DNA of 64,000 nucleotides from assembly GCA_903860975.1 (NCBI GenBank), contig CAIOSI010000051.1, positions 1-64,000 on the forward strand, written 5' to 3'. The notes under the pieces are model-generated. The model made no database searches, was not told where the DNA came from, and was given only the letters and a program-made list of their open reading frames with translations. The position numbers and the translations under genes are program-made. The DNA is from an uncultured Alphaproteobacteria bacterium. Lineage in GTDB: Bacteria; Pseudomonadota; Alphaproteobacteria; Caulobacterales; Caulobacteraceae. Position 1 is the stretch's first letter; every line of letters begins with the position of its first letter. This document shows positions 2 to 54,366 of this stretch, piece by piece.

Positions 2-820
2 GTGCGCGGCGGCGCCGGAACGGCTACACGAACGGTCGGCCTGTTGGGAGGCATCCTTACCTATGCAGTTGACGCCGGCATCATCGAACGCAATCCGGCA
101 CATGGCCTGAAAAAGCCCAAGGACAATGTGCGCAATCGTCGTCTCAGTGAGGCCGAGTACCGAACCCTTGGGCAAATGCTGCGCAAGGCTGCCGAAAATG
201 AGAAGTACGCGCTGACGGTTGAGATCATACGGTTGATCGCCCTGACAGGCTGCCGCCGCAGTGAGATCATCGGCTTGATGTGGGACGAAGTGGATCTCGA
301 CGCCAGTTGCCTCCGCCTCGTTGACAGCAAGGAGGGCGACTCTGTCCGCCCGACGGGGTTACCCGTCGTCGAGCGCCTCGAGGAACGCCGGAAGGAAACC
401 GCGAGCAGTTACGTCTTCCCAGGCGAGCGCAATGCCGCCGCGTTTGGGAGTTTCCCAAACCATTGGGAACAGATTTTCAGGGCGTCACCGCTCGCCGACG
501 TGACGCCTCACGTCCTGCGGCACAGCTTCGCCAGTATCGCTAACGACCTCGGATTCACCGAAATCACCATCGCAGCGCTCGTGGGCCACTCCAAGGGTAC
601 GATGACCAGCAAGTACATCCATACGCTTGATACGGCGCTCATAATGGCCGCAGACACGATCGCCGGTTACATCCTTGGGCTGCTGGATGGGATTGAGTTC
701 AAGCAGACGGCTTACGCCTTGGACCGCGACTCACGGCGAGCCGCCCTCGATCGCTTCCTGACCAAAGCGGTGGGAGAGACGGGGAGCGAGGTTGAAGGAC
801 CGACACGCCAAGCTGCCTGA
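2..820 (+). CDS. int: Tyrosine recombinase / phage-type integrase, 5' end cut by window
   Basis: Catalytic-domain signatures: 'ALTGCRRSEIIGLMWDEVDL' (Arg I box) and 'HVLRHSFASIANDLGFTEITIAALVGHSKGTMTSKYIH' (H-x-x-R ... GH ... Y). The N-terminal arm-binding domain is missing because the window starts inside the gene. Confidence 0.93.
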   Translation: MRGGAGTATRTVGLLGGILTYAVDAGIIERNPAHGLKKPKDNVRNRRLSEAEYRTLGQMLRKAAENEKYALTVEIIRLIALTGCRRSEIIGLMWDEVDLDASCLRLVDSKEGDSVRPTGLPVVERLEERRKETASSYVFPGERNAAAFGSFPNHWEQIFRASPLADVTPHVLRHSFASIANDLGFTEITIAALVGHSKGTMTSKYIHTLDTALIMAADTIAGYILGLLDGIEFKQTAYALDRDSRRAALDRFLTKAVGETGSEVEGPTRQAA

Positions 821-23022: not shown

Positions 23023-23277
23023 ATGATCACCGCTCGACAATCGCGGGCCGCACGCGCGTTGCTGGGTTGGACACAGGAGACGCTCGCTGACAAGGCCCAG
23101 GTATCCCTGACCGCGCTCAAGCGCCTCGAATCCGAAAGCGGGCTCGATGTGTACGAGACGACGCGGGATCAGGTGCGTAGGGCGTTTGAATCAGCCGGCG
23201 TCGTCCTCCTGTCCACGGATAAGGGCGAGGGTGTTCTGCGGCTCCATGAACCAAGCGATCGATCTGCCAGGCGCTAG
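23023..23277 (+). CDS. XRE-type HTH regulator (QseC-like position)
   Basis: 'QSRAARALLGWTQETLADKAQVSLTALKRLESESGLDVYETTRDQVRRAFESAGV'. Confidence 0.8.
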   Translation: MITARQSRAARALLGWTQETLADKAQVSLTALKRLESESGLDVYETTRDQVRRAFESAGVVLLSTDKGEGVLRLHEPSDRSARR

Positions 23278-23391: not shown

Positions 23392-23664
23392 ATGGAGCGC
23401 TCTACACCGCCATTCCTGGATGAACCGCCGCAAGGCCAGAAACTCACGTCCTATGATCGTGAGCATATGACGCTTTATCTGCGCCTCCTTGATGCCGACC
23501 GGGACAGCGCGGATTGGCGCGAGGCCGTGCAAATCCTGTTCGGACTGGACCCCGATCACGACCCTCAAAGGTGCCGCAAAGTTCACGCCACTCACTTGGC
23601 GCGCGCCAAGTGGATGTCCGAGAGCGGCTATCGAGAATTGCTGCGTAAAGACCAATCCCACTGA
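23392..23664 (+). CDS. DUF2285-type small protein (QseM-like antiactivator candidate)
   Basis: 'LTSYDREHMTLYLRLLDADRDSADWREAVQILFGLDPDHDPQRCRKVHATHLARAKWMSESGYRELL', next to the DUF6499/DUF2285 activator. Confidence 0.7.
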   Translation: MERSTPPFLDEPPQGQKLTSYDREHMTLYLRLLDADRDSADWREAVQILFGLDPDHDPQRCRKVHATHLARAKWMSESGYRELLRKDQSH

Positions 23665-23774: not shown

Positions 23775-24537
23775 ATGATGCCCGATGCGTCACATTGGCG
23801 ATCTTCGGCACGTTACGACCATGTCGAGAAGCTGACCGCGTCGGGCCTTGCATGGGAATGGCTTCGCCGAAACGAGACCTACAATCAGGACTTCGAAGCA
23901 TTGTCCGCGAGGGACGCGGACCGGGCCATGTTGACGGAGAAAATCCGTCAGCGCTGGAGGTTGCGATTTCGCGGCAGATCCGTATCTCGATCAACCGACG
24001 CCTTCAGTCTTCTGGTTACCGCAAGACGACACCAGTGTCGTTGTCTTGACGTCGGCGCCCTCTGCCCTCGTCCAAGCCGATGACAGCCAGCCTTCGCTCC
24101 ATGGCGGGGCGGAGGAAGTTGACGAGCAAGGCGTCCATGCCATTTTTCAGCTTGGCAATGGCGAGCAGGTTCAGCTGCTCACGACCGGCTCGGCGCCGGT
24201 CGCGGCCGTCATACCGCTCGACCTCGAAGGTTTCGACAGGCTTCAAGCCGTTCACCGCCTGCTCGCGGGAATGCATGGCCGCGCCATCCCGCCTGACACC
24301 CGGATAACGCCCCAGCAGCGCGCGCGGGCAAAGCGCATGTTGCGAACATTCGACGGCGTTCGCGATGGCGCGACGCAGCTGGACATTGCGCAAACTCTAT
24401 TCCGAACCGGCGATCTCGACCGCGACGAATGGCAAGCCTCTTCGGCGCGCCATGCCATCAAATCCTTGTTGCGCGATGCCCACGGCATGATCGGGGGCGG
24501 CTATCGACGGTTGCTTCGCCACCATCGCCGGTCCTAG
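23775..24537 (+). CDS. FseA-like DUF6499-DUF2285 excision activator split in two frames; probable +1 frameshift near 23967-23970
   Basis: Frame A (23775 to stop 24083): 'SHWRSSARYDHVEKLTASGLAWEWLRRNETYNQDFEAL...RQRWRLRF'. Frame B is open from 23935 to 24537 and continues 'AADPYLDQPTPSVFWLPQDDTSVVVLTSAP...'. Joining at TTT|C gives a continuous family-like protein. Confidence 0.75.
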
Positions 24538-24679
24538 CCTCGTCCATCGCCCTGCCTCCGGTGGGCGATTTTGATACCCCCCAAATTCGCCCTGCAACCC
24601 GCCGGTTTCACTTCGCCATTGTGGCCTTCGTCCGCCGCCGTTCATCGGCAGCCCCAACGAACCCACGAAAGGCCGAACC

Positions 24680-24961
24680 ATGCGACCCGATCTCGCCGTC
24701 CTGCCACCGCGCTTCCTGCGCACCAAGGAAGCCGCCGAATTTCTGAGCCTCTCGGCGCGCACCCTCGAAAAGCACCGCACCTACGGAACAGGGCCTGACT
24801 ACAAGAAGCTTGGCGGCCGCGTCGTTTATGCCATCGACGACCTGCAAGCCTGGGCCGAACGCGGCGCGGTCACCTCGACCTCCGACCCGCGCGGCCTGGT
24901 CCTGCCGGCAAAGCGCCACCCGCTTTCCGCCGTGGCCCAGCCCAGCCGCTACGCACGCTGA
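24680..24961 (+). CDS. HTH_17/excisionase-like DNA-binding protein (RdfS-like candidate)
   Basis: 'PPRFLRTKEAAEFLSLSARTLEKHRTYGTGPDYKKLGGRVVYAIDDLQAWAERG', upstream of repA. Confidence 0.75.
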   Translation: MRPDLAVLPPRFLRTKEAAEFLSLSARTLEKHRTYGTGPDYKKLGGRVVYAIDDLQAWAERGAVTSTSDPRGLVLPAKRHPLSAVAQPSRYAR

Positions 24962-24979: not shown

Positions 24980-26140
24980 ATGGCGGCGCGGCATCTCTCC
25001 CCATCAGAGCGCGGACAACTCGACCTGTTCCGAGCGCTGCCCGGCGACTTCGCGCCCAGAGATGCGCAGGATCTCATGGCCTATCCGTTCTTTTCCCTCT
25101 CCAAGACCCATCGCGTCGCGCCGATCGATTTCGTCTCCGGCGCCGTGTCGATCCGCGTCGAGGCCGTCCCTGATCACGGCATGGCGACCATATGGGACGC
25201 CGACATCCTGATCTGGGCGGCGAGCCAGATCGTCGAGGCGCGCGACGCAGGGCTTCGCACCTCGCGCCTGATGGTGGCGACACCATACGAAATCCTGAAG
25301 TTCATCGGCCGCGGCACCAGTATGCGCGACTATCAGCGCCTGAAGGCGGCGCTTGACCGGCTCCAATCCACGACCGTCTCCACGTCCATTCGCCAACCCA
25401 CCGAAGGGCGGCGTCATCGCTTCTCCTGGATCAACGAATGGAAGGAGCGCACCGACAGCCAAGGCAAGCCAGACGGCATCGAGATGATCGTGCCCGACTG
25501 GTTCTACAGCTGCGTGCTCGACAACGCGCTCGTGCTCACCATCGACCGGGCTTATTTCGACCTGACTGGCGGGCTCGATCGCTGGCTCTACCGGATCGTT
25601 CGCAAGCATGGTGGCCGCCAGCGCAATGGCTGGCGTTTTGACTTCCGCCATTTGCATCAGAAATCCGGCGCGCTCTCCCCATTCAAACGCTTCGCCTTCG
25701 AGCTGCGCGACATCATCCGCCGTCAGCCGCTGCCGGGATACACCCTCTTCCTCGAAGTCGAGATCGGCGGGCGGACACTTCTCGCTTTCGAGCCGAATCC
25801 GCCCTGTGGAAAACCTGTGGATTGCTTCGTGCCATTGGGAACCCGAGGGCGCGTGCCATCAGGAACCACCCCCTCGTGCCATGGGGAACCGAAACAGCGC
25901 TTAACTCGCGACAGCAAAACGGAAATTCGCGCCCTTAACTTAGAATCTAACTCAGAATCTAACTTTGAAGAGGGCGCGCGGGATGTGGAAAGCCTCATTC
26001 AGCACGCGGCTGACGCCCTCAGCTTGACCGGCAAAACGCGCCGGCGGGCCACGAATGGCGGCCAAGAAAAGGCCCCACGGCACGATGCGCGGGACGCACA
26101 GCAGCTTCCTCTCCGAGATCATTCGGGGGGCACCCGATGA
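24980..26140 (+). CDS. repA: Replication initiator protein RepA
   Basis: 'LMAYPFFSLSKTHRVAPIDF', 'WDADILIWAASQIVEARDAGLRTSRLMVATPYEILKFIGRGTSMRDYQRLKAALDRLQSTTVSTSIRQ'; plasmid RepA-like. Confidence 0.88.
   Translation: MAARHLSPSERGQLDLFRALPGDFAPRDAQDLMAYPFFSLSKTHRVAPIDFVSGAVSIRVEAVPDHGMATIWDADILIWAASQIVEARDAGLRTSRLMVATPYEILKFIGRGTSMRDYQRLKAALDRLQSTTVSTSIRQPTEGRRHRFSWINEWKERTDSQGKPDGIEMIVPDWFYSCVLDNALVLTIDRAYFDLTGGLDRWLYRIVRKHGGRQRNGWRFDFRHLHQKSGALSPFKRFAFELRDIIRRQPLPGYTLFLEVEIGGRTLLAFEPNPPCGKPVDCFVPLGTRGRVPSGTTPSCHGEPKQRLTRDSKTEIRALNLESNSESNFEEGARDVESLIQHAADALSLTGKTRRRATNGGQEKAPRHDARDAQQLPLRDHSGGTR
25805..25964. repeat. oriV-like array inside the 3' part of repA
   Basis: DnaA-box-like TGTGGAAAA (25805-25813) and TGTGGATTG (25816-25824); iterons CGTGCCATTGGGAACC (25828-25843), CGTGCCATCAGGAACC (25852-25867), CGTGCCATGGGGAACC (25875-25890); AT-rich repeats AGAATCTAACT (25942-25952, 25954-25964). 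Confidence 0.65.
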
Positions 26141-26790
26141 TACTGGCGCTCCTCAACCAAAAGGGTGGCGTCGGCAAGACGACGTTGGCGCTCAACCTCG
26201 CAGGCGCATGGGCCGCGAAGGGAAAGCGGGTGACGCTGATCGATGCCGATCCTCAGGGCTCGGCGCTCGACTGGTCCCAGCAGCGTAGCCGGGAAGGCCT
26301 GCCTCGCCTGTTCGGCGTCGTCGGCCTTGCGCGTGACACCCTGCATCGCGAGGCGCCAGAACTCGCCCGCGACGCCGATCATGTCGTGATCGACGGGCCG
26401 CCGCGCGTCGCCGGCCTGATGCGTTCGGCGTTGCTCGCGTGCGACTTGGTGTTGATCCCAGTGCAGCCTTCGCCATTCGACGGATGGGCGTCCGCCGAAA
26501 TGCTGGCGCTGGTGACAGAGGCCCGCATCTACCGGCCCGAACTGGCGGCGCGCTTCGTGCTGAACCGTTGCGGCGCGCGCACCTTGCTCGCCCGCGAGAC
26601 AGCCGAGGCGCTCGCCGATCACGACCCACCCGTGCTTGCCGCGACCATCGGCCAACGCATCGCATTCGCCGTCACCGCGCAATCGGGCCGACTGGTTTCC
26701 GAAATGGACGGCGACACACCCGCCGCGCGCGAAATCTCGGCGCTGGCGGACGAGATCGAACGTCTCGACATCAAAAGGCACGCGCAATGA
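26137..26790 (+). CDS. parA: ParA-family partition ATPase
   Basis: 'MILALLNQKGGVGKTTLALNLAGAWAAKGKRVTLIDADPQGSALDWSQQR'. Confidence 0.95.
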   Translation: MILALLNQKGGVGKTTLALNLAGAWAAKGKRVTLIDADPQGSALDWSQQRSREGLPRLFGVVGLARDTLHREAPELARDADHVVIDGPPRVAGLMRSALLACDLVLIPVQPSPFDGWASAEMLALVTEARIYRPELAARFVLNRCGARTLLARETAEALADHDPPVLAATIGQRIAFAVTAQSGRLVSEMDGDTPAAREISALADEIERLDIKRHAQ

Positions 26791-27038: not shown

Positions 27039-27556
27039 CCGGCGCCGCGGCTCCCCGCGTGCGCGGCGGCCCCGTGCCGATCGCGCAACGCTCCGATAAC
27101 CTCACCCATGTCGAACTGACCTGGGTGGAAAAGCGGATCGAGAACTGGATCAGGTTCGGCCGCGAAGCACACGAAGAGATCATCGATCGACGCCGCCGTG
27201 TGCTCTCCTTCCGGGCTGGCAGCACATTTGCCTTCGTTCGCTGGGCCGCCAATGACTTCGGAACGATCCTTTCTCGCATCGACATCGTGCGCGCCGTCTC
27301 GCCCGGCGAGACCTACCAGACGCTGCCGTTCGTGCGTCCTGGCGGCGAGATTCTGCTCAAGATCGAAGGTTGGCCGAAGGTCCAACAGGTGCTGCGCCAC
27401 ATCGACGCCGCAGAAGACGCCGGCGTCGACGCCTCCGACGTCTCCCCCGATCACTGGCGGCACGTCGCCAACCGGTTGAGCGCCGGTCAGGAACCTCGCG
27501 CCTACACGATGGAGCGCCACCAGGCGTGGCTCAAGCGCCGGGAGATCGAGCGATGA
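27035..27556 (+). CDS. DUF2840 domain-containing protein
   Basis: 'LTHVELTWVEKRIENWIRFGREAHEEIIDRRRRVLSFRAGSTFAFVRWAANDFGT', between parA and traF. Confidence 0.8.
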   Translation: MTGAAAPRVRGGPVPIAQRSDNLTHVELTWVEKRIENWIRFGREAHEEIIDRRRRVLSFRAGSTFAFVRWAANDFGTILSRIDIVRAVSPGETYQTLPFVRPGGEILLKIEGWPKVQQVLRHIDAAEDAGVDASDVSPDHWRHVANRLSAGQEPRAYTMERHQAWLKRREIER

Positions 27557-28098
27557 CCCGCTTCGGCTATATCATGGCGACGTATTTCGCCACGATGGGC
27601 GTCGCGATCGCCGCGTTCGTCTCCTTGCCGGTGAAGCTGCTCTGGAATGCCTCTGCCAGCACGCCCATCGGCTTCTATGACCTCGACCCGCCGCGCAACC
27701 TGAAGGTTGGTGACCTGGTCGCGGTCATGCCGGACAAACCGCTCGCCGACTTCATGGTGGAGCGCGGCTATATCGGCCGCGATGTGCCGCTCCTGAAGCA
27801 TGTCGCCGCGCTGCCGGGGCAAGAGGTTTGCCGCGTCGGCCGCAGCGTCACCGTTGACGCCGTGCCATTCGGTGATGCGCTCGATCACGATCATCTGGGG
27901 CGGGATCTGCCGGTCTGGCGGGGCTGCCGTCGCCTTGCGAACGGCGATCTCTTTCTCATGAACCCTGCCGTCCAAGACAGCCTGGACGGACGCTACTTCG
28001 GCCCGCTCCCGGCGCGCGCGGTGATCGGCAAGGCGACGCCCCTCTACACCGACGAAGCTGGCGATGGCCGCTTCATCTGGCGTGCGGCGACGCGCTGA
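27553..28098 (+). CDS. traF: S26-family signal peptidase, conjugal transfer TraF
   Basis: 'LLWNASASTPIGFYDLDPPRNLKVGDLVAVMPDKPLADFMVERGYIGRDVPLLKHVAALPGQEVCRVG' (Ser-Lys protease signature). Confidence 0.9.
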   Translation: MTRFGYIMATYFATMGVAIAAFVSLPVKLLWNASASTPIGFYDLDPPRNLKVGDLVAVMPDKPLADFMVERGYIGRDVPLLKHVAALPGQEVCRVGRSVTVDAVPFGDALDHDHLGRDLPVWRGCRRLANGDLFLMNPAVQDSLDGRYFGPLPARAVIGKATPLYTDEAGDGRFIWRAATR

Positions 28099-28483: not shown

Positions 28484-29188
28484 ATGGGCCGACCCGTCCT
28501 TCTTTTCCTTTTCGGCCTGTCGTTCGCCTGCGTTATGCCGTGTGCGACATTCGCCGAACCTTTGGCTGTCGCGCGGCCTAACCCACGCGACCCCTACGGC
28601 GCTCGTATCGCCGAAGCGGCGCAACGCTTCGAGCTTCCCGCCTCCTGGATACGCGCCGTTCTCAAAGCCGAAAGCAACGGCGATCCGCGCGCCATCTCGC
28701 CCAAGGGCGCGATGGGTCTGATGCAGGTCATGCCCGACACTTGGGCGGAACTGCGCGTCCGTCACCGTCTCGGCGGCAATCCTTACGATCCCCACGACAA
28801 CATCATCGCGGGATCGGCCTATATCCGCGCGCTCTATGATCGCTATGGATCGCCGGGCTGGATCGCCGCCTACAATGCCGGTCCGGGTCGCTATGAGGCG
28901 TCGTTGAGAGGGCGTCCGCTCCCCAACGAAACCCGTTCCTATGTCGCGACCGTGGCGCCAAATCTCGACCGCGGCGTCACCACGATCGCTGCGATCGATC
29001 GGTTTGCCTGGACCCGCGCGCCGCTTTTCATCGCGCAGCCGGATCGCACGTCTGGCTCCGACCCGGCCACTGCCGAACGAACTGCGAATGACAGCAAATC
29101 GACGCCGGTTGTGCACGATGTTTCAGACATCGTCCCGCAGTCAGACGGCTTATTCGTCAGCCGTTCATCAGAAGGGATCGTGCGATGA
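28484..29188 (+). CDS. Lytic transglycosylase (SLT)
   Basis: 'LPASWIRAVLKAESNGDPRAISPKGAMGLMQVMPDTWAELRVRHRLGGNPYDPHDNIIAGSAYIRALYDRYGSPGWIAAYNAGPGRY'. Confidence 0.93.
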   Translation: MGRPVLLFLFGLSFACVMPCATFAEPLAVARPNPRDPYGARIAEAAQRFELPASWIRAVLKAESNGDPRAISPKGAMGLMQVMPDTWAELRVRHRLGGNPYDPHDNIIAGSAYIRALYDRYGSPGWIAAYNAGPGRYEASLRGRPLPNETRSYVATVAPNLDRGVTTIAAIDRFAWTRAPLFIAQPDRTSGSDPATAERTANDSKSTPVVHDVSDIVPQSDGLFVSRSSEGIVR

Positions 29189-29284: not shown

Positions 29285-29360
29285 AAAGGCCGCGAGGTGC
29301 GGCGTGTTGCGGTCGTTTTGTTTCAAGAGGTTATGGCTCATTATCGCGAGGTGCAGGGTT
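29285..29360. other. oriT candidate region upstream of the relaxase gene
   Basis: Non-coding gap before the relaxase with GCCGC-GAGGT-GCGGC (29289-29303), direct repeat CGCGAGGTGC (29291-29300 and 29345-29354), and bottom strand ACCCTGCA resembling the IncP/Ti ATCCTG|C nic consensus. Confidence 0.35.
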
Positions 29361-29432
29361 TTGCCGCACATCGCGGCGACGCCGCTTTCTCCGCGATTTC
29401 AGACGCTTGATGCGATGTGCGGGTCTCAGGTC

Positions 29433-31172
29433 ATGAGCGGCGAGGACGACTTCAACATCCGTCCGGGCCGCATTCGCTCGCCCAGTGCGCAACGTGCGCG
29501 ACCGTTCATCGCGCAGGCCCTGGCGGCCGCGCAAAAGGCCGGCGCCCGCGTCTCTCGTTCCGGGCGGATCAGCTCCGGCAACCGTTCCACCTTCGGCCGT
29601 GGCCGCACGGCGAGCGTTCGCGCCAACCGCCTCCTGACCGGTCGGTCCCGCGTCGTCGTAATCAAGACCCGCGTGGTGCGCCATCACGCCCGCGCGACAC
29701 CACTGACGTCGCATCTCAACTATCTGCGCCGAGAGGGCGTAACCCGTGACGGAGAGAAGGCGCGGTTATTCGGCCCGGAGAGCGGCGAGGTTGATGGCCG
29801 CGCCTTTGCGGAGCGTGCCGAAGAGGACCGCCATCATTTCCGGTTCATCGTCTCGCCCGAGGACGCCGTGGATATGGCCGACCTCAAATCCTTTGCCCGC
29901 GAGCTGATGGGCCAGATGGAAAAAGACCTCGGCACGAAGCTCGATTGGGCCGCCGTCGATCACTGGAACACCGACAATCCGCACGTTCACATCATCCTGC
30001 GCGGCCGGACCGATGACGGACAGGATCTCGTCATCGCCCGCGACTACATCAAGGACGGGATGCGTGCCCGCGCCGCAGACCTCGTAACCCAGGAACTCGG
30101 GCAGCGAACCGACATCGACATCCGCCGTAATTTGGACCGGCAGATCGAGGCGGAGCGTTGGACGCAGCTCGACCGCCAGCTCGTCCGTGACGGTCGCGAT
30201 ACGGGCGTCATCGATATGGCGCCCGATCCAAAGGCCCCGCCCGACGAGTATCACGCGCTGAAGGTTGGACGCCTTCACAAGCTGGAATCGCTCGGTCTCG
30301 CCGATCAACTCGGCCCTGGCCAATGGGTGATCAGCGACAAGGCCGAGACGACCTTGCGGGAACTCGGAGAACGTGGCGACATCATCAAACGCATGCACCG
30401 CGCCCTTACCGAACGCGGCATCGAGCGCGGGTCGTCAAACTATGTGCTGGCAGCCGAAAGCCTCGATGCGCCGATCATCGGCAGGCTGGTCGATCGTGGT
30501 CTCGACGACGAACTCAAATCCACGGCCTATGCCGTGGTCGATGGCGTAGACGGCCGCACCCATCACATCCGGTTGCCAGACCTCGAAGCGACAGGCGACG
30601 GCGCACCGGGTTCCATCGTCGAACTGCGCAAATTCGACGACGCAAGCGGTCAGCGCCGCGTCGCGCTGGCTGTTCGCTCCGATCTCGACATCGACCATCA
30701 GATCACGGCGCCCGGCGCCACTTGGCTGGACCGGCAGAACATCGCGCGCACGCCCGTCGCCCTCTCCGAAGGCGGCTTCGGCGCCGAGGTGAAGCAGGCG
30801 ATGGAGCGTCGCGCCGAGCATCTGGTCGAACAGGGCTTTGCCAATCGCAACGGCCCGCGCGTCACCTTCAACCTCAACCTGATCGACACGCTGCGCAACC
30901 GGGAAATGGAAACGCTCGGCGAGAAGCTCGCTGCCGAATCCGGCCAGCCCTTCAAGCGCGCGGGGAGCGGCGAATACATCGCTGGTTCCTACCGCCAGCG
31001 CTTCACGCTCGCCTCGGGCCGCTTCGCCATGATCGACGACGGCCTCGGTTTCCAGCTCGTTCCCTGGACGCCCTCTCTCGAAAAGCAGCTTGGCCGCCAT
31101 GTCTCCGGCGTCGCCCGTGGCGACGGGGGCGTCGACTGGAGCTTCAGCCGCAAATGGGGCCTCGGCCTTTGA
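29433..31172 (+). CDS. VirD2/DUF3363-family relaxase
   Basis: 'RVVVIKTRVVRHHARATPLTSHLNYLRREGVTRDGEKARLF', 'HHFRFIVSPEDAVDMADLKSFARELM', 'DHWNTDNPHVHIILRG'. Confidence 0.93.
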   Translation: MSGEDDFNIRPGRIRSPSAQRARPFIAQALAAAQKAGARVSRSGRISSGNRSTFGRGRTASVRANRLLTGRSRVVVIKTRVVRHHARATPLTSHLNYLRREGVTRDGEKARLFGPESGEVDGRAFAERAEEDRHHFRFIVSPEDAVDMADLKSFARELMGQMEKDLGTKLDWAAVDHWNTDNPHVHIILRGRTDDGQDLVIARDYIKDGMRARAADLVTQELGQRTDIDIRRNLDRQIEAERWTQLDRQLVRDGRDTGVIDMAPDPKAPPDEYHALKVGRLHKLESLGLADQLGPGQWVISDKAETTLRELGERGDIIKRMHRALTERGIERGSSNYVLAAESLDAPIIGRLVDRGLDDELKSTAYAVVDGVDGRTHHIRLPDLEATGDGAPGSIVELRKFDDASGQRRVALAVRSDLDIDHQITAPGATWLDRQNIARTPVALSEGGFGAEVKQAMERRAEHLVEQGFANRNGPRVTFNLNLIDTLRNREMETLGEKLAAESGQPFKRAGSGEYIAGSYRQRFTLASGRFAMIDDGLGFQLVPWTPSLEKQLGRHVSGVARGDGGVDWSFSRKWGLGL

Positions 31173-31196: not shown

Positions 31197-33182
31197 ATGT
31201 CAGCCACGAAAATTCTCTGGGGCCAGATCCTCGTCGTATTCGCCATCGTCCTCGTCTGCGTCTGGGGCGCGACCGAATGGGTCGCGTGGCGGCTCGCCTT
31301 CCAGCCAGAACTCGGACAGCCATGGTTTCGAGTACTCGGCTTTCCCTTCTACCTGCCGCCTGCCTTCTTCTGGTGGTGGTATGGCTACGACGCCTACGCA
31401 CCGTCCATTTTCGTCGAGGGCGCCTATATCGCCGCATCCGGCGGCTTCATCGCGGCGGCGATGGCGATCGGCATGTCGGTGTGGCGCGCGCGGGAAGCAA
31501 AGAAGGTCGAAACCTACGGCTCGGCGCGATGGGCCGATACCCATGAGATAAAAGCCGCCGGCCTTCTCGGTCCTGACGGCGTGGTGCTTGGCCGCTACGA
31601 TCACGACTATCTGCGTCATGATGGACCGGAGCATGTGCTGTGCTTCGCCCCGACCCGATCCGGAAAGGGTGTCGGTCTTGTCGTCCCTTCGCTGCTGACC
31701 TGGCCGGGCTCAGCCATCGTCCATGACATCAAGGGCGAAAACTGGCAGCTCACCGCCGGCTTTCGCGCCCGACACGGCCGCGTGTTGCTGTTCGATCCGA
31801 CCAACAGGAAGTCCTCTGCCTACAACCCACTGCTCGAGGTCCGCCGTGGCGAGTGGGAGGTGCGCGACGTCCAGAACATCGCCGACATCCTGGTCGATCC
31901 CGAAGGCAGTTTGGAAAAGCGGAACCATTGGGAAAAAACCAGCCACGCTCTCCTGGTCGGCGCGATCCTGCATGTCCTTTATGCCGAAGAGGACAAGACG
32001 CTCGCCGGTGTTGCCTCTTTCCTCTCAGATCCGAAGCGGCCGATCGAGTCGACGCTCGCCGCGATGATGAAAACCCCGCATCTCGGCGAGGCCGGACCGC
32101 ATCCCGTCATCGCCAGCGCCGCGCGCGAGCTGCTGAACAAATCCGACAATGAGCGGTCGGGCGTGCTTTCCACCGCCATGTCTTTCCTTGGCCTGTACCG
32201 CGATCCTGTCGTCGCGGAAGTGACGCGTCGATGTGACTGGCGCATCACGGACATCGTGACGGCCAAGCACCCGACAACGCTGTATCTCGTCGTACCGCCA
32301 TCCGACATCAACCGCACCAAGCCGCTGATCCGTCTGATCCTCAACCAGGTCGGCCGCCGCCTGACCGAAGACTTGCAGGCCAAAGCGGGGCGCCACCGCC
32401 TCCTGCTCATGCTGGATGAGTTTCCAGCGCTGGGTCGTCTCGACTTCTTCGAGTCGGCGCTGGCCTTCATGGCTGGCTACGGCCTCAAGAGCTTTCTCAT
32501 CGCTCAGTCCCTGAACCAGATCGAGAAGGCCTACGGTGCAAACAATTCCATCCTCGACAACTGCCATGTCCGGGTGAGCTTCGCCACCAACGACGAGCGC
32601 ACCGCAAAGCGCGTGTCAGATGCGCTCGGCACCGCCACAGAGATGAAGGCGATGAAGAACTATGCGGGCAGCCGGCTCTCCCCCTGGCTCGGGCACCTGA
32701 TGGTATCCCGATCCGAAACCGCCCGGCCGCTGCTCACCCCCGGCGAGGTGATGCAGCTCCCGCCTACCGACGAAATCGTCATGATCGCGGGCACGCCGCC
32801 TATCCGGGCGAAGAAGGCACGCTACTACGAGGATGAGCGCTTCAAGGAACGCCTTTTGCCGCCGCCGGTGCTGACCACGCCGAAGCAGGGAAGAACCGAC
32901 GACTGGACGACACTGCCGCTACCACCAAGGCCCGAGCTTGCTGAAGGCAGCCCTGCGCCCGATAGCCATGACGATGACCCGACAGAATCCGAGCGCCGCC
33001 AGCAGCCCGAACTCAACCGCGTTTCGCCAATTGAGCAGAAGGCGTCGGCCGAGAACGAATTCGAGATCGGTGTAGTCGACGACGACGACGATAATGCGGT
33101 CCGCAACAGCCGCATGACGCAGATAATGCAGGGGGTGGCGCGGCAGGTCACGCTTGATCCCGCCGACGGCATGGACCTGTGA
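31197..33182 (+). CDS. traG: Type IV coupling protein TraG/VirD4
   Basis: 'VLCFAPTRSGKGVGLVVPSLLTWPGSAIVHDIKGENW', 'LLLMLDEFPALGRLDFFESALAFMAGYGLKSFLIAQSLNQIEKAYG'. Confidence 0.95.
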   Translation: MSATKILWGQILVVFAIVLVCVWGATEWVAWRLAFQPELGQPWFRVLGFPFYLPPAFFWWWYGYDAYAPSIFVEGAYIAASGGFIAAAMAIGMSVWRAREAKKVETYGSARWADTHEIKAAGLLGPDGVVLGRYDHDYLRHDGPEHVLCFAPTRSGKGVGLVVPSLLTWPGSAIVHDIKGENWQLTAGFRARHGRVLLFDPTNRKSSAYNPLLEVRRGEWEVRDVQNIADILVDPEGSLEKRNHWEKTSHALLVGAILHVLYAEEDKTLAGVASFLSDPKRPIESTLAAMMKTPHLGEAGPHPVIASAARELLNKSDNERSGVLSTAMSFLGLYRDPVVAEVTRRCDWRITDIVTAKHPTTLYLVVPPSDINRTKPLIRLILNQVGRRLTEDLQAKAGRHRLLLMLDEFPALGRLDFFESALAFMAGYGLKSFLIAQSLNQIEKAYGANNSILDNCHVRVSFATNDERTAKRVSDALGTATEMKAMKNYAGSRLSPWLGHLMVSRSETARPLLTPGEVMQLPPTDEIVMIAGTPPIRAKKARYYEDERFKERLLPPPVLTTPKQGRTDDWTTLPLPPRPELAEGSPAPDSHDDDPTESERRQQPELNRVSPIEQKASAENEFEIGVVDDDDDNAVRNSRMTQIMQGVARQVTLDPADGMDL

Positions 33183-34859: not shown

Positions 34860-34911
34860 GCAGGCTTCACCAGTCGGATCGAATGGAACGCAAATGAACA
34901 AGTAGGAACTT

Positions 34912-37464: not shown

Positions 37465-37666
37465 GGTGGCGCAAATTCGTCTACGCGATTGCTATGCGTG
37501 AAAGCGCATCTTCAAAGGCAAGATGTCTGCACCACCGCCGTTTTCCTGTATTTGCACGCCACGGTACTACGCCGATAAATCCTTGTTGAATCCGCCCAAA
37601 ATCCGGCTCTTTTACTCAACCCCGTAAGGGGAAGGTCTGTTGGTCCCCGCTTTAGATCGGGGCGAC

Positions 37667-38671
37667 ATGACGGCTTCACATCACAATTCGGAAGGGCTGG
37701 CGCGCGGCGCGCGGATGCTGCGCACCGCGCTCGGCCCCGCTATCGCCCGCTTTCTGGAAGATGCGTCCGTCGTCGAGGTGATGCTGAACCCCGATGGCCG
37801 CATCTGGATCGACCGGCTGTCCGAAGGGCTATCCGATACCGGCGAGCGCCTATCGCCCGCCGATGGCGAACGCATCGTGCGTCTGGTCGCTCATCATGTC
37901 GGCGCCGAGGTCCATGGCGGTGCGCCCCGTGTTTCGGCCGAGCTTCCCGAAACGGGGGAACGCTTTGAGGGCCTGTTGCCGCCCGTCGTCGCGGCGCCGG
38001 CCTTTGCGATCCGCAAGCCCGCCGTCGCTGTGTTCACGCTTGATGACTATGTCGCCGCCGGGATCATGTCCGCAGCACAGGCCGAGGCCTTGCGTCAAGG
38101 CGTCGTCACGCGCGCCAATATCCTCGTCGCAGGAGGCACCAGCACCGGTAAGACCACGCTGACCAACGCGCTGCTGGCGGAAGTCGCCAAAACCTCGGAT
38201 CGCGTCGTCATCATCGAGGATACGCGTGAGCTTCAATGCGCCGCGCCCAACCTCGTCGCCATGCGCACAAAGGACGGCGTCGCCTCGCTCTCCGACCTCG
38301 TCCGCTCGTCCCTTCGTCTTCGCCCGGATCGCATTCCAGTCGGCGAGGTGCGTGGCTCGGAAGCGCTCGAACTTCTCAAAGCCTGGGGCACCGGACACCC
38401 CGGCGGCATCGGCACCATTCACGCCGGCAGCGCGATCGGTGCGCTCAGGCGGATGGAACAGCTCATCCAGGAAGCCGTCGTCACGGTGCCGCGCGCGCTG
38501 ATCGCTGAAACGATCGATCTCATCGCGGTGCTCGCCGGTCGCGGCTCCGCGCGCCGCCTCGTTGAACTCGCTCGCGTCGAGGGCCTCGGCGCCGATGGCG
38601 ACTATCGCGTCGTGCCGACCCTCTGCGCTCCGACTTCTCTCGCCCCCAGCCTCCAAGGAGACCCCGCATGA
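37667..38671 (+). CDS. trbB: Conjugal transfer ATPase TrbB
   Basis: '[41 protein letters not shown]...[23 protein letters not shown]'. Confidence 0.95.
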
Positions 38672-39000
38672 TCCGTTCTCTTCAGTCTGTCCGCCGGCGC
38701 CTTGCCGCCACGGCGTCCTTCGCCGCGCTGAGCATGATGATGGCCGCGCCAGCCCATGCCTCAGGCTCATCGATGCCATGGGAGCAGCCGCTCCAGCAAA
38801 TCCTCAATTCGATCGAAGGACCGGTCGCCAAGATCATGGCGGTGATCATCATCATCGTCACCGGACTGACGCTGGCCTTCGGTGATACCTCCGGCGGATT
38901 CCGCCGCCTGATCCAGATCGTCTTCGGCCTGTCGATCGCGTTCGCGGCGTCGAGCTTCTTCCTTTCGTTCTTCAGCTTCAGCGGCGGAGCGCTGGTCTGA
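38668..39000 (+). CDS. trbC: TrbC (VirB2-like pilin)
   Basis: Signal-like N-terminus plus two hydrophobic helices; order trbB-trbC-trbD. Confidence 0.9.
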   Translation: MIRSLQSVRRRLAATASFAALSMMMAAPAHASGSSMPWEQPLQQILNSIEGPVAKIMAVIIIIVTGLTLAFGDTSGGFRRLIQIVFGLSIAFAASSFFLSFFSFSGGALV

Positions 39001-39281
39001 TGGCGGAGTTGCTCAACACTGCCGGCGAGGTTCCTGGCTACACCGTTCCGGTCCACCGCGCGCTGTCCGAGCCCATCCTGCTCGGCGGCGCGCCTCGCGC
39101 CATCGCCATCCTCAATGGCACGCTCGCCGGCGCGGTCGGCTTGGGTCTACGGCTGTGGCTGGTCGGAATCGCCATCTGGGCGATCGGTCACATGACCGCC
39201 GTTTGGGCGGCCAAGCGTGACCCTCTGTTTGTCGACGTCGTTCGCCAGCACCTGCGCACCCCAGCGCATCTCACCGTTTGA
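39000..39281 (+). CDS. trbD: TrbD (VirB3-like)
   Basis: 'VPVHRALSEPILLGGAPRAIAILNGTLAGAVGLGLRLWLVGIAIWAIGHM'. Confidence 0.92.
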   Translation: MAELLNTAGEVPGYTVPVHRALSEPILLGGAPRAIAILNGTLAGAVGLGLRLWLVGIAIWAIGHMTAVWAAKRDPLFVDVVRQHLRTPAHLTV

Positions 39282-39294
39282 ACGGGGCGCGGCC

Positions 39295-41733
39295 ATGATG
39301 AACCTTGCCGAATACCGCAATCGCAATGCCAGGCTCGCCGATTTTCTCCCCTGGGCCGCGCTGCTTAGCGAAGGTGTCGTCCTCAACAAGGACGGCAGTT
39401 TCCAACGCACGGCGCGATTCCGCGGCCCGGATCTCGACAGCGCTGTTCAGGCAGAGCTGGTCGCCGTCGCCGGGCGGCTTAATAACGCTTTCCGGCGGCT
39501 TGGATCGGGTTGGGCGATTTTCGTCGAGGCGCAACGTCATGCCGCCGCCACCTATCCTGTGAGCCGATTCCCCGATGCGGCCTCAGCGCTGGTCGAAGCC
39601 GAGCGCAGGGCGGATTTCGAAGAAGCCGGCGCGCATTTTGAATCCAGCTACTTCCTGACCTTCGCCTATCTGCCGCCGGCGGAGGACGCAGCCCGCGCCG
39701 AGACCTGGCTCTATGAAGGCCGTGCCAACAAGGGCATTGACCCGCACGAGGTCATGCTTGGGTTCATTGATCGCACCGACCGGCTCATCCGCCTCGTTGA
39801 GGCGTTCATGCCAGAATGCGCGTGGCTCGATGATGCCGAGACGCTCACCTATCTGCATGCCTGCGTCTCGACAAAGCGCCATCGCGTTCGCGTTCCAGAG
39901 ACGCCGATTTATCTCGACGCTCTGCTCGCCGATCAGGCTTTGACCGGCGGCCTCGAACCCCGCCTTGGCACGCAGCACCTGCGCGTGCTCACCATCGTTG
40001 GGTTCCCGACGGCGACGACACCAGGGCTCCTGGACGAGTTGAACCGACTGGCCTTCCCCTATCGCTGGGCGACGCGGGCCATCCTTCTCGACAAGACCGA
40101 CGCGACGAAACTGCTCACCAAGATCCGGCGGCAATGGTTCGCGAAGAGAAAATCCATCGCCGCAATTCTGAAGGAAGTGATGACGAACGAGGCGTCGGCA
40201 CTGGTCGACACCGATGCGTCGAACAAGGCGGCCGATGCCGACCTCGCGCTTCAGGAATTGGGCGCCGACTATGCCGGCGTCGCCTATGTGACCGCGACGG
40301 TCACTGTCTGGGATTCCGACCCGCGCGCCGCTGACGAGAAACTGCGCCTCGTGGAAAAGGTTATCCAGGGCCGCGACTTCACAGCCATGGCGGAAACCAT
40401 CAACGCGGTGGATGCCTGGCTCGGCAGCCTGCCGGGACACGTCTACGCCAATGTCCGGCAACCGCCGATTTCGACGCTCAATCTCGCCCACATGATACCC
40501 TTGTCAGCGGTGTGGGCGGGGCCGGAACGGGATGAGCACTTCGGGTCGCCCCCCTTGCTCTTTGGCAAGACCGAGGGAAGCACCCCGTTCCGGTTTTCCC
40601 TTCACGTCGGCGATGTCGGCCATACGCTGATCGTCGGTCCGACAGGTGCGGGCAAGTCCGTCCTTCTCGCCCTGATGGCCCTGCAATTTCGCCGCTATGC
40701 CAACGCGCAGGTCTTCGCCTTCGATTTCGGCGGCTCGATCCGCGCCGCGGCGCTTGCCATGGGCGGTGACTGGCATGACCTCGGCGGCGGGCTGACCGAA
40801 GGGAGCGCGACAAGCGTTTCCCTCCAACCGCTTGCCCGCGCAGACGACGCCGCCGAGCGGGCGTGGGCGGCTGACTGGATCACGTCTATCCTAATGCGCG
40901 AAGGTGTGAAGATCAGCCCCGAGGTGAAGGAGCACATCTGGACGGCGCTGACCTCGCTCGCTTCGGCGCCGGTCGAGGAGCGGACGATCACCGGCCTCTG
41001 CGTCCTTTTGCAGTCCAACGACCTGAAGCAGGCACTGCGGCCTTACTGTGTTGGGGGATCATGGGGACGGCTGCTCGACGCCGAGGCCGAACATCTTGGG
41101 ACCGCCACGGTGCAGGCCTTCGAGACCGAGGGCCTGATCGGCACGGACTCCGCCCCTGCGGTACTCGCTTATCTGTTTCACCGCATCGAAGACCGCCTCG
41201 ATGGATCGCCGACGCTCATCATCATCGATGAGGGCTGGCTGGCGCTCGACGATGAAGGCTTCTCGGGCCAACTGCGCGAATGGCTGAAGACGCTGCGCAA
41301 GAAAAACGCCAGCGTCATCTTCGCAACCCAGAGCCTGTCCGACATCGACGGCTCGGCCGTCGCGCCGGCCATCATCGAAAGCTGTCAGACTCGGCTTTTG
41401 CTGCCGAACGAGCGAGCGATCGAACCGCAGATCACAGCGATCTATCGCCGCTTCGGTCTCAATGACCGCCAGATCGAGATCATCGCGCGGGCCATGCCCA
41501 AGCGCGACTACTACTGCCAGTCCCGGCGCGGCAATCGCCTGTTCGAGCTGGGACTGTCCGAAGTTGCGCTCGCACTTTGCGCCGCCTCTTCGAAGACGGA
41601 CCAGACCGCCATCGCCAAAATCATCGACGAGCACGGTCAGGTCGGATTCCTCGCCGCCTGGCTGCGCTTTCGAGGCGCCAGCTGGGCTGCCGATCTCATT
41701 CCTAACCTCACCAACATGGAGATGTCCTCATGA
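39295..41733 (+). CDS. trbE: TrbE (VirB4-like ATPase)
   Basis: 'HTLIVGPTGAGKSVLLALMALQFRRY', 'LIIIDEGWLALDDEGFSGQLREWLKTLRKKNASVIFATQSL'. Confidence 0.95.
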   Translation: MMNLAEYRNRNARLADFLPWAALLSEGVVLNKDGSFQRTARFRGPDLDSAVQAELVAVAGRLNNAFRRLGSGWAIFVEAQRHAAATYPVSRFPDAASALVEAERRADFEEAGAHFESSYFLTFAYLPPAEDAARAETWLYEGRANKGIDPHEVMLGFIDRTDRLIRLVEAFMPECAWLDDAETLTYLHACVSTKRHRVRVPETPIYLDALLADQALTGGLEPRLGTQHLRVLTIVGFPTATTPGLLDELNRLAFPYRWATRAILLDKTDATKLLTKIRRQWFAKRKSIAAILKEVMTNEASALVDTDASNKAADADLALQELGADYAGVAYVTATVTVWDSDPRAADEKLRLVEKVIQGRDFTAMAETINAVDAWLGSLPGHVYANVRQPPISTLNLAHMIPLSAVWAGPERDEHFGSPPLLFGKTEGSTPFRFSLHVGDVGHTLIVGPTGAGKSVLLALMALQFRRYANAQVFAFDFGGSIRAAALAMGGDWHDLGGGLTEGSATSVSLQPLARADDAAERAWAADWITSILMREGVKISPEVKEHIWTALTSLASAPVEERTITGLCVLLQSNDLKQALRPYCVGGSWGRLLDAEAEHLGTATVQAFETEGLIGTDSAPAVLAYLFHRIEDRLDGSPTLIIIDEGWLALDDEGFSGQLREWLKTLRKKNASVIFATQSLSDIDGSAVAPAIIESCQTRLLLPNERAIEPQITAIYRRFGLNDRQIEIIARAMPKRDYYCQSRRGNRLFELGLSEVALALCAASSKTDQTAIAKIIDEHGQVGFLAAWLRFRGASWAADLIPNLTNMEMSS

Positions 41734-42491
41734 TCCCGCGCCGTTCTCGCGCGGCACGCCTCGCGCTCGTGCTGCTTACCGCTCCGGTGGCTGTCGCCCC
41801 GATTCTCGCCACACCCGCTCAAGCGCAGTGGGTGGTCTTCGATCCCTCGAACTATGCCCAGAATGTGCTGACGGCAGCCCGTGCGCTTCAGCAAATCAAC
41901 AACCAGATCACCTCGCTCCAGAACCAGGCGCAGAGTCTGATCAATCAGGCCCGCAACCTGGCCAGCCTGCCGTATTCGTCGCTGGCGCAGCTCCAGCAGT
42001 CAATCCAGCGAACGCAGCAGCTTCTCAGCCAGGCGCAGAACATCGCTTACAACGTCCAGTCAATCGATCAGGCGTTCCAGCAGAAATACTCGACCGCTTC
42101 GATGTTGGCGTCCGATGCCCAACTCGTCGCCAATGCTCAGGCCCGCTGGCAGAATACGGTCGGCGGTCTTCAGGACGCGATGCACGTTCAGGCGACCGTC
42201 GTCGGTAATCTCGACACCAACCGCACGCAGATGTCGGCGCTCGTCGGATCGAGTCAGTCCGCAACCGGCTCGCTTCAAGCAACTCAAGCTGGAAACCAGC
42301 TCCTTGCCCTTCAGGCGCAGCAATTGGCCGATCTCACTGCCGTCGTCGCGGCGAATGGGAGGTCACAGGCGTTGCAATCAGCGGAGCAAGCCGCAGCCGC
42401 CGCGCAAGGGCAGGCACAACGCCAGCGCTTCCTGACGCCCGGCACAGGCTACCAGCCCGGCAGCGCCCAGATGTTCTACAGCGGAAACTGA
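41730..42491 (+). CDS. trbJ: TrbJ (VirB5-like)
   Basis: 'AQWVVFDPSNYAQNVLTAARALQQINNQITSLQNQAQSLINQARNL'. Confidence 0.93.
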   Translation: MIPRRSRAARLALVLLTAPVAVAPILATPAQAQWVVFDPSNYAQNVLTAARALQQINNQITSLQNQAQSLINQARNLASLPYSSLAQLQQSIQRTQQLLSQAQNIAYNVQSIDQAFQQKYSTASMLASDAQLVANAQARWQNTVGGLQDAMHVQATVVGNLDTNRTQMSALVGSSQSATGSLQATQAGNQLLALQAQQLADLTAVVAANGRSQALQSAEQAAAAAQGQAQRQRFLTPGTGYQPGSAQMFYSGN

Positions 42492-42501
42492 GGACGGCGT
42501 C

Positions 42502-42810
42502 ATGGACGGTAAGACCCTCGCACGCATCGGCGCCATCGCCTTCGTCACGCTCGCCATCGTCACGTCAGCAATCGAGATGAACCGAAAGGAGGAAGCGCCC
42601 GAGGTCTTCGCGGGCACCGCGAAGGTTCAAACCGGCCCGGACCCGCTGGCTGCGGAACTCGGCCGTTGCAGCGGCCTCGGCGAAGCCGGACCGCGCGATC
42701 CGTCCTGCCTTGAGGCATGGGCCGCCAATCGTCGGCGCTTCCTCGGTGATGACACGACAACGGCACAATCCAGCGCCCCACAAGCGGCGGCCACCGGCGA
42801 GGCGCGCTGA
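42502..42810 (+). CDS. trbK: TrbK-like entry-exclusion protein
   Basis: Position between trbJ and trbL; 'CSGLGEAGPRDPSCLEAWAANRRRFLG'. Confidence 0.8.
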   Translation: MDGKTLARIGAIAFVTLAIVTSAIEMNRKEEAPEVFAGTAKVQTGPDPLAAELGRCSGLGEAGPRDPSCLEAWAANRRRFLGDDTTTAQSSAPQAAATGEAR

Positions 42811-42812
42811 TC

Positions 42813-44168
42813 ATGGGCGGCACAGGGGTCATCGACCAATTCCTCGCGGTCTTCACCCGCTACATCGACGGCGGCTTTGGCCTCCTAGGCGGCGAAGTCA
42901 GCTTTATCGCAACGACGCTGATCGTCATCGACGTCACGCTCGCCGCGCTCTTTTGGAGCTGGGGCGCCGATGAAGACATCATGGCGCGCCTTGTCAAAAA
43001 AACGCTGTTCGTCGGCGCGTTCGCCTACCTCATCGGCAACTGGAACAATCTGGCCCGCATCGTCTTCGAGAGTTTCGCGGGGCTAGGGCTGAAAGCATCG
43101 GGCACCGGCTTCACGACCGCCCAATTGCTGCAACCGGGGCAAGTTGCGCAGACGGGCCTCGACGCGGGCCGTCCGCTCCTGGCTTCGATCTCGAACCTGA
43201 TGGGCTACTGGTCGTTCTTCGAGAACTTCATCCAGATCTCTTGCATGTTCTTCGCTTGGGCGCTCGTGCTGCTCGCCTTCTTCATTCTTGCCGTCCAGCT
43301 CTTCGTCACGCTCATCGAATTCAAGCTGACCACGCTGGCCGGGTTCGTGCTGATCCCCTTCGGGCTATTCGGAAAAAGCGCGTTCATGGCCGAACGCGTG
43401 CTCGGCAATGTGATCTCATCCGGTATCAAGGTGCTGGTGCTCGCGATCATCATTGGCATCGGCTCGACGCTATTCTCTCAGTTCACGGCCGGTTTCGGCG
43501 GCGCCACGCCGACGATCGACCAAGCAATGGCGATCGTTCTCGCAGCTCTGTCGCTGCTCGGCCTCGGCATCTTCGGTCCTGGCATCGCCAATGGCCTCGT
43601 CTCTGGAGGCCCACAACTTGGCGCTGGCGCCGCCGCAGCGACCGGCCTTGCCGCTGGCGGCATGGCGCTCGCAGGAGGAGCCGCGATCGGCGCCGCAGCC
43701 GGCGGCGTCGGCGCGCTTGCCGGAGGAGCGGCGGCAGCAGCACGCGGCGGGGCCGCGCTCGCGGGTGGAGCCTCCACCGCGTACAGCCTCGGAGCGGCCG
43801 GCCAATCTGGAGCCGCCGGAGTCGCTTCCGGCCTCGGCAATGTCGCAAGCACCGGCGCGCAAGCTGCCGCCTCTCCGCTGAAACGCGCCGCGTCGCGCGC
43901 CGCTGACAGCCTCAAATCGAGCTACCAGTCAGGCGCGCGCGCCGCCTTCGAAATGACCGGAGGTTCGATCGGTGGCGATGCAGCCGAGGCCGAGGGCGCA
44001 GGCGCCGCGCCGACGGGCGGCTCCTCTGATCAAACACCCGCCTGGGCCGCGCGCATGAAGCGCTCTCAGGCCATGTCTCACGGCGTCCAGACAGCCGGTC
44101 ACGCGGTGCGATCCGGCGACAGCCATGGCGGCGGCTCTTCCGTCAACCTCTCCGAAAGTGACAGCTGA
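42813..44168 (+). CDS. trbL: TrbL (VirB6-like)
   Basis: Polytopic protein 'GVIDQFLAVFTRYIDGGFGLLGGEVSFIATTLIVIDVTLAALFWSWG', Ala/Gly-rich tail. Confidence 0.93.
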   Translation: MGGTGVIDQFLAVFTRYIDGGFGLLGGEVSFIATTLIVIDVTLAALFWSWGADEDIMARLVKKTLFVGAFAYLIGNWNNLARIVFESFAGLGLKASGTGFTTAQLLQPGQVAQTGLDAGRPLLASISNLMGYWSFFENFIQISCMFFAWALVLLAFFILAVQLFVTLIEFKLTTLAGFVLIPFGLFGKSAFMAERVLGNVISSGIKVLVLAIIIGIGSTLFSQFTAGFGGATPTIDQAMAIVLAALSLLGLGIFGPGIANGLVSGGPQLGAGAAAATGLAAGGMALAGGAAIGAAAGGVGALAGGAAAAARGGAALAGGASTAYSLGAAGQSGAAGVASGLGNVASTGAQAAASPLKRAASRAADSLKSSYQSGARAAFEMTGGSIGGDAAEAEGAGAAPTGGSSDQTPAWAARMKRSQAMSHGVQTAGHAVRSGDSHGGGSSVNLSESDS

Positions 44169-44851
44169 TGTTCAAGCGACCATCCACCCATTACGGCCAG
44201 GCGCCGCTACCCGAAACGCCTTATCAACGGGCCGCTCAGGTCTGGGATGACCGCATCGGCTCCGCTCGGGTCCAGGCCCGCAATTGGCGCCTCATGGCCT
44301 TTGGCTCGCTCATCCTTTCGGCGGGGCTGGCCACCGCGCTCGTTTGGCAATCCGCTTCCGGTTCAATCGTGCCGTGGGTGGTGCAGGTCGACAAGCTGGG
44401 CGCGGCTCAGGCGATCGCGCCGGCCACCTCCGACTACGAGCCAAGCGATCCGCAGGTCGCCTTCTACCTCGCCAAATTCATCGAACAGGTCAGAAGCATT
44501 CCGTCCGACCCGATTATTGTCCGTCAGAACTGGCTGCGCGCCTACGATTTTACGACGCAGGCCGGCGCGCTCGCGCTGAACGATTACGCCCGCACCAATG
44601 ATCCGTTCGCAAATGTCGGCAAACAACAGGTCGCCGTGGACGTGTCGTCCGTCATTCGCGCTTCCCCGACCTCCTTCCGGATCGCTTGGATCGAGCGCCG
44701 CTATCAGGACGGCAGTCTCGCCAGCACCGAGCGATGGAGCGCCATCGTGACCGTCGTCGTCCAGACACCGCGGACCGCCGACGCGCTCAGGAAGAACCCG
44801 CTCGGAATCTACATCAATGCCATCAACTGGTCGAAGGAGCTTGGACAATGA
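44168..44851 (+). CDS. trbF: TrbF (VirB8-like)
   Basis: 'FKRPSTHYGQAPLPETPYQRAAQVWDDRIGSARVQARNWRLMAFGSL'. Confidence 0.93.
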   Translation: MFKRPSTHYGQAPLPETPYQRAAQVWDDRIGSARVQARNWRLMAFGSLILSAGLATALVWQSASGSIVPWVVQVDKLGAAQAIAPATSDYEPSDPQVAFYLAKFIEQVRSIPSDPIIVRQNWLRAYDFTTQAGALALNDYARTNDPFANVGKQQVAVDVSSVIRASPTSFRIAWIERRYQDGSLASTERWSAIVTVVVQTPRTADALRKNPLGIYINAINWSKELGQ

Positions 44852-45891
44852 CGTCCGTCGTTCGCGGAGCCGCCCGCGTAAATCTGGAAAGTGCGGCTTT
44901 CCGCACCGCCTCAATCACGGTTTTACTGCTCTGCGCCACCGCGCTCACCGGCTGCGCCACGGCGATGAAGCCGCCGGAGATCACTTATGATGAAGCCGCT
45001 CCCGCCGTCCTTGCTGCCGATCCGCCCGCGCCAGTCAAAGTGGTTGAGCTGCCGAAGGTGCTGCCGCTGCCTGGACAATTGAAGCCAGTCGGTCAGGACG
45101 GCAAACCCACGCCAGAACCCGCCGATCCCACCGTGCGGGTAAATCAGGCCAATGCGGCTGCGCGCATGCAGCCAGTCAGGAATGGCTTCATCAACGCCAT
45201 CCAGATTTATCCGTTCGTCGAAGGCGCGCTCTACCAGGTGTATGCCGCCCCCGGTCAGATCACCGACATTGCCTTGCAGCCCGGAGAGACACTCGTTGGC
45301 TCCGGTCCCGTAGCGGCCGGCGACACCGTGCGCTGGATCATAGGCGACACCCAGAGCGGCGCGGGCGCGACCCAGCAGGTCCACATCCTCGTCAAGCCGA
45401 CGCGGCCTGAATTGATGACCAACCTCGTCATCAATACCAATGCGCGGACCTATCACCTTGAGCTGCGTTCGACCGAGAAGACTTACATGGCCTCGGTATC
45501 TTGGCAGTATCCGCAGGATCAGCTCATTGCGCTCCGCCGGCAGAATGCCGAGGCGCAAGCGGCGCAGCCCGTCGCCACCGGCGTGGATCTGGCGCGCGTC
45601 AATTTTCGCTACGACGTGACGGGTGACCGCGCACCGTGGCGGCCGCTCCGCGCTTTCGATGACGGCAAACAGGTCTTCATCGAGTTTCCGCGCGGCATCG
45701 CCCAAGGTGAAATGCCGCCGATCTTCGTCGTCGGTCCGGAAGGCGATACGTCCGAACTCGTGAACTACCGGGTGCGCGGCAATTACATGATCGTCGACCG
45801 GCTGTTCGCCGCCGCCGAGCTGCGCTTCGGTTCCGACAAGAACCAGAAGCGCGTGCGGATCTCCCGCACCGACGGAAGGCCGGCGTCATGA
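44848..45891 (+). CDS. trbG: TrbG (VirB9-like)
   Basis: Lipoprotein-like 'TALTGCATAMKPPEI'; 'PFVEGALYQVYAAPGQITDIALQPGETL'. Confidence 0.93.
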   Translation: MTSVVRGAARVNLESAAFRTASITVLLLCATALTGCATAMKPPEITYDEAAPAVLAADPPAPVKVVELPKVLPLPGQLKPVGQDGKPTPEPADPTVRVNQANAAARMQPVRNGFINAIQIYPFVEGALYQVYAAPGQITDIALQPGETLVGSGPVAAGDTVRWIIGDTQSGAGATQQVHILVKPTRPELMTNLVINTNARTYHLELRSTEKTYMASVSWQYPQDQLIALRRQNAEAQAAQPVATGVDLARVNFRYDVTGDRAPWRPLRAFDDGKQVFIEFPRGIAQGEMPPIFVVGPEGDTSELVNYRVRGNYMIVDRLFAAAELRFGSDKNQKRVRISRTDGRPAS

Positions 45892-54305: not shown

Positions 54306-54366
54306 ACCCGTGTCCCTTGGCACGCGCGCTTACCCATATCGGTCAGTACGCCCAGATTGCCGATCA

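Follow-up and report, generated by a model that had tools for sequence, protein, structure and literature searches.

The window analysed here is the whole 64,000-nucleotide stretch at the start of contig CAIOSI010000051.1, from an uncultured member of the Caulobacteraceae. At its centre of interest lies a pair of overlapping reading frames offset by one base, flanked by candidate regulatory partners. The genes and elements of this cluster are as follows.

23023..23277, + strand: small HTH_3 regulator (PF01381, E 1.3e-5), in a position analogous to that of qseC
23392..23664, + strand: predicted qseM-like antiactivator, a lone DUF2285 protein (matches QseM, PDB 7UQT, E 4.7e-20, 47% identity)
23775..24083, + strand: fseA frame A, DUF6499 (PF20109), from ATG 23775 to TGA 24081-24083
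23935..24537, + strand: fseA frame B, middle domain and DUF2285/RovC DNA-binding domain, joined from 23971
23955..23961, + strand: Shine-Dalgarno (SD)-like putative stimulator UGGAGGU
23964..23970, + strand: putative shift site CGA-UUU-C, with C23970 skipped or, equivalently, U23967
24564..24591, + strand: candidate FseA box GGCGAT-N16-TTCGCC, recognised by its sequence
24680..24961, + strand: rdfS-like HTH_17 excisionase (PF12728, E 1.2e-8)

Frame A, preceded by an SD-like GGAGG 6 nt upstream of its ATG, matches PF20109 nearly end to end over residues 7-65 (78 bits, E 5e-22), bearing out an earlier sequence-only reading that had seen a DUF6499-like N-terminus here, and it carries AWEWLRRN, a form of the AWEFLRRN-like motif of the family. 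Frame B is open from 23935, just after a TGA at 23932-23934, to a TAG ending at 24537; it matches PF10074 (DUF2285) over the full length of the profile (105 bits, E 3.6e-30), and its DUF2285 domain has a net charge of +8, positive as in the FseA family. The source genome contains one DUF6499 and two DUF2285 domains, all inside this cluster. At the junction, CGC TGG AGG TTG CGA TTT is followed by a C and then by GCG GCA GAT CCG from 23971, with TTT at 23967-23969 and C at 23970, exactly where the sequence-only reading had placed them, as it had the opening of frame B. The join had also been likened to the RWGLRF-ADP type; the motif here is WRLRF, not WGLRF. A fusion would take the residues of frame A through Phe65.

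In frame B, translation could begin at TTG 24046 at the earliest, and the conserved AADPYLDQPTPSVFWLP (the ADP...FW segment) is encoded upstream of it. Because no ATG, GTG or TTG precedes this motif in frame B at this locus (L001), AADP...FW would be translatable here only via a shift. Such a lack of a start before the conserved motif could be demonstrated in 32 of 117 homologues, fewer than expected, so that the argument is strong at this locus but not for all relatives.

The cluster is followed by genes typed as below, with a recombinase gene at the start of the window.

2..820, + strand: tyrosine recombinase, probable integrase (PF00589, E 1.2e-18), at the contig start
24980..26140, + strand: replication initiator RPA (PF10134, E 3.8e-90)
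26137..26790, + strand: ParA-like ATPase
27370..28098, + strand: traF-like S26 signal peptidase (PF10502, E 3.4e-24), true start probably further in
28484..29188, + strand: lytic transglycosylase (PF01464, E 4e-24)
29304..31172, + strand: RlxS-type relaxase with DUF3363 (NF041267, E 2e-175, below the curated cut-off; PF11843)
31197..33182, + strand: TraG coupling protein (PF02534, E 2.6e-103)
37640..47114, + strand: trb conjugation cluster, with TrbB-like ATPase, TrbE, TrbL and TrbI identified

As to the ends of the element, the integrase lies at the contig start, and tRNA-Arg(CCG) at 57347-57423 has only a partial repeat: 41 bp at 57684-57724, some 260 bp from the gene and 93% identical to it, which may be what is left of the attachment site of an integrated element. 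An insertion with genes for an AAA ATPase and a subtilase-family protease (33849-37464) separates traG from the trb cluster. Defence-like genes were also seen: at 3867-8148 a HamA-like protein and, after it, a DEAD helicase, resembling a Hachiman-type pair, and a minus-strand run at 49465-56574 comprising a helicase, an MmeI-type methyltransferase/restriction enzyme and GmrSD with a Schlafen/AlbA domain.

Conservation and codon selection at the junction

A single-sequence scan of genome contigs yielded one relative only (L002). About 1,200 genomes were searched and the regions retrieved, giving 253 distinct DUF6499 sequences. DUF2285 follows in the +1 frame in 192 of these, in the same frame, as a single open reading frame (ORF), in 45, in the other shifted frame in 4 and after an in-frame stop in 1; 11 have no downstream partner. 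In published work, about 61% of 4709 FseA homologues were split (PMC10359603). Site counts were made on 189 distinct split sequences, with the WxL motif as anchor. TTT occupies the anchored place in 177 of them (178 if a locus with TTT one codon off is included), and every one of the 189 has C or T after the slip codon; with the sequences clustered at 60% identity, the figures are 87/89 clusters for TTT and 89/89 for the pyrimidine. The exceptions to TTT are 10 TGT, 1 AGT and 1 apparent ACC (L050), the last with TTT C one codon further downstream. L210-type loci, L014 and L039 are among those with UGU or AGU where UUU is usual. The split, with its +1 offset, is real and not chance. The alignment of the split ORFs with homologues, named beforehand as a check, shows the site to be conserved as UUU-Y, and these counts support UUU-C as a plausible +1 slip site, as had been proposed.

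The codons themselves are under constraint. At the site, 177/177 Phe codons are TTT (p 5e-83), whereas TTT makes up 27% of the Phe codons in the rest of these genes; measured against the same background, Gly is GGG in 137/184 (background 12%), Leu is TTG in 96/166 (12% of Leu codons), and Arg before UUU is CGA in 104/123 (10%). Where Arg replaces Gly in WGL, as in 5 of the 189 split genes, this locus included, it is encoded by AGG in 5/5. Control columns within AWEFLRRN, taken from these genes too, lack this bias: Phe is TTC in 32 cases and TTT in 14, and Arg is rarely CGA. Non-Arg codons before UUU do not favour A in the third position (3/66), so the CGA effect is specific to CGA. A preference for UCC before UUU, as in the influenza-type site, was not significant among the split homologues (p 0.057). 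Single-ORF relatives mostly carry GGC, CGC and TTC at the site, without the codon pattern of the split genes, and TTC in 6 of the 7 having Phe there; since the comparison of split with single-ORF genes is confounded by lineage, the within-gene codon background served as the main control. One single-ORF relative, L018, still has CGA TTT, which suggests recent loss of the shift. Together, these results indicate that selection acts on the nucleotides of the site, beyond the protein.

An SD-like UGGGGG at the same place has been noted earlier by others (PMC10359603). At our locus, AGG gives a perfect GGAGGU match to the anti-SD instead of the usual GGGGGU, with a pairing energy of -10.5 kcal/mol; the mean is -9.5 among members with GGG and -2.8 among random windows. 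Because the amino acid has changed (Gly to Arg) while the SD-like sequence was kept, a role for this element is supported. A search for stimulatory 3' RNA structure in the homologues found none (mean z -0.16, control -0.31).

Models for expression across the split

FseA is produced by +1 programmed ribosomal frameshifting in the reference system (PMC10359603), and we propose that the same happens here. Ribosomes would translate DUF6499, reach UGG AGG UUG CGA UUU C, and in most cases read on in frame A as far as its stop at 24083. Some, the minority, would shift +1, the simplest route being the re-pairing of peptidyl-tRNA-Phe from UUU to UUC, possibly helped by the SD-like GGAGGU and by the preceding CGA codon, and these would make a 253-residue FseA-like activator. 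In bacteria, +1 slips occur readily at UUU_Ynn, since tRNA-Phe can re-pair with UUC or UUU (PMC5009743), and UUU_CGN is a +1 site in influenza PA-X and amalgaviruses (PMC5052127). The locus shares its UUU-Y slip codon with the influenza PA-X type UUU_Ynn and UCC_UUU_CGU sites, and the invariant pyrimidine fits a slip on UUU because tRNA-Phe can re-pair on UUC/UUU. The activator, a relative of FseA, is probably made only by ribosomes slipping +1 at this conserved spot.

The spacing of the SD-like element speaks against a slip on UUU. UGGAGG ends 3 nt upstream of CGA and 6 nt upstream of UUU, and of these two distances it is 3 nt at which an SD is known to promote +1 shifting (PMC5009743). The shift might instead start with CGA in the P site, with tRNA-Phe entering in the +1 frame at UUC and U23967 being skipped, which for members with UUU predicts the identical protein. 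CGA is decoded by an inosine-containing tRNA-Arg. The weak pairing of this tRNA would be exploited together with the destabilising SD-like sequence 3 nt upstream. The bias towards CGA among Arg codons, with no matching third-base bias among other codons, favours such a start, as do the loci lacking TTT: 11 of the 12 have UGU or AGU, all 11 after CGA or CGG (p 0.014), and the tRNA of a UGU or AGU slip codon would re-pair poorly, whereas CGA-N-GUC works. The UGU/AGU cases stem, however, from about three lineages, the codon in this position is not Arg at roughly a third of split sites, which yet keep UUU-Y, and after CGA the first U is kept almost without exception, a constraint that a start at CGA would not by itself impose; alternatively, CGA may exert its effect from the E site while the slip occurs on UUU. 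We regard a start at CGA at this locus as unlikely, though worth keeping in view. That most split fseA genes shift from a P-site CGA with a prfB-like 3-nt SD spacing and a dependence on inosine wobble, UUU-Y being read in either frame by tRNA-Phe, seems to us marginally more doubtful again. The prfB +1 frameshift likewise has an SD-like stimulator, but here there is no A-site stop codon, and the SD-like element ends 6 nt from UUU.

Two further explanations dispense with the shift. Frame B might be initiated independently or by coupling, giving a separate DUF2285 protein and no fusion. Initiation could occur at TTG 24046, and two coding sequences are often entered in annotated records, but the product would lack the conserved ADP...FW segment, and separate initiation gives no account of the selection on the TTT, CGA and GGG/AGG codons; we consider it very improbable. 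That the gene is broken or the sequence in error, either of which would give a 1-base offset, can be given next to no weight: 189 distinct sequences share this offset at one and the same codon, both flanking domains are intact, and for the family as a whole the comparison refutes this explanation.

Putative regulatory partners and known systems

Our preferred reading, to which we give a probability of about 0.9, is that a split fseA on an integrated conjugative element yields, by a +1 shift, an activator that would control the rdfS-like gene and be blocked by a QseM-like protein. The split, its conservation, the codon-level selection on the site and the homology of each partner are direct observations on the sequences; from them we infer the efficiency of the shift, DNA binding and the control of excision. 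FseA would bind the box at 24564-24591 and turn on the rdfS-like gene at 24680, leading to excision and transfer, while the QseM-like protein encoded upstream would bind helix 2 of DUF6499, which along with TraR is a target of the QseM family, and so block the activator.

In the published system FseA activates rdfS through a box of inverted-repeat hexamers 15-16 bp apart. Our candidate has this layout and lies 89 bp upstream of the rdfS-like start, against 62 bp in the published logo, and the motif is weakly specific: inverted repeats cluster near the offset of the candidate box in homologues, and relaxed matches to the short motif are common at other offsets too. An rdfS-like relative is found downstream of split fseA in 143 homologous loci, and a lone DUF2285 gene upstream of it in 135 of the 187 split loci with enough flank.

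A QseM-type DUF2285 antagonist had been anticipated, and the gene next door at 23392-23664 fits this role. Its predicted product has DUF2285 without DUF6499 and is acidic, and its R31 and D34 align with Arg28 and Asp31 of QseM, on a numbering in which the solved chain (7UQT), 94 residues long, is taken to carry a tag of 11 residues. Both QseM residues are needed for antiactivation (PMC10359603). Lone upstream DUF2285 proteins have a mean net charge of -3.5 (138 split loci), against +9.5 for the DUF2285 of FseA (189); because the two groups do not overlap, we argue that the upstream gene generally encodes an acidic QseM-type protein.

The locus belongs to the described FseA family. DUF6499 and DUF2285 in two frames with a +1 join match split homologues and support the FseA-like product proposed in the sequence-only reading; FseA itself (msi172-msi171) of ICEMlSymR7A from Mesorhizobium japonicum has the same arrangement, with an SD-like sequence at the WxL codons and an element carrying rdfS, traF, rlxS and trb. 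Our locus differs in having Arg (AGG) for Gly in WGL and in placing fseA directly between qseM and rdfS. The M. japonicum QseM is likewise a lone acidic DUF2285 protein, while the gene here is on the same strand as fseA and directly upstream of it. Another known system is the split fseA of Paracoccus saliphilus p242883 (L267), whose fusion product is 60% identical and which shares the order DUF2285, DUF6499, DUF2285, HTH and RPA, then S26 and transglycosylase. It is annotated as separate DUF6499 and DUF2285 genes; it differs in being plasmid-borne and, at its site, TGG GGT TTG CGA TTT C, in having GGT where our locus has AGG. Both domains also align weakly with Yersinia RovC (PDB 6XZ5, E 5.6e-5), a distant similarity only. 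RovC activates a type VI secretion system (PMC10359603).

It had further been suggested that the same gate operates here as in ICEMlSymR7A. The frameshift and antiactivation parts of this proposal are supported by what we find, but its TraR/TraI quorum-sensing input to fseA is not. LuxI (PF00765) was unmatched in the genome, as it was in the control genomes, so that the search had no positive control; no LuxR was found near the locus, the one weak PF03472 match being on another contig. These results point against the input without proving its absence.

The switch itself is already published, and our analysis extends this known transfer switch to the present genome, with qseM, split fseA and rdfS commonly forming one compact block. 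It also describes in more detail than before which bases of the fseA slip site are under selection. The constraint on CGA was less expected and would allow a shift that starts at CGA rather than at UUU; if this were true of most split fseA genes, transfer of these elements would be tuned by a host tRNA modification.
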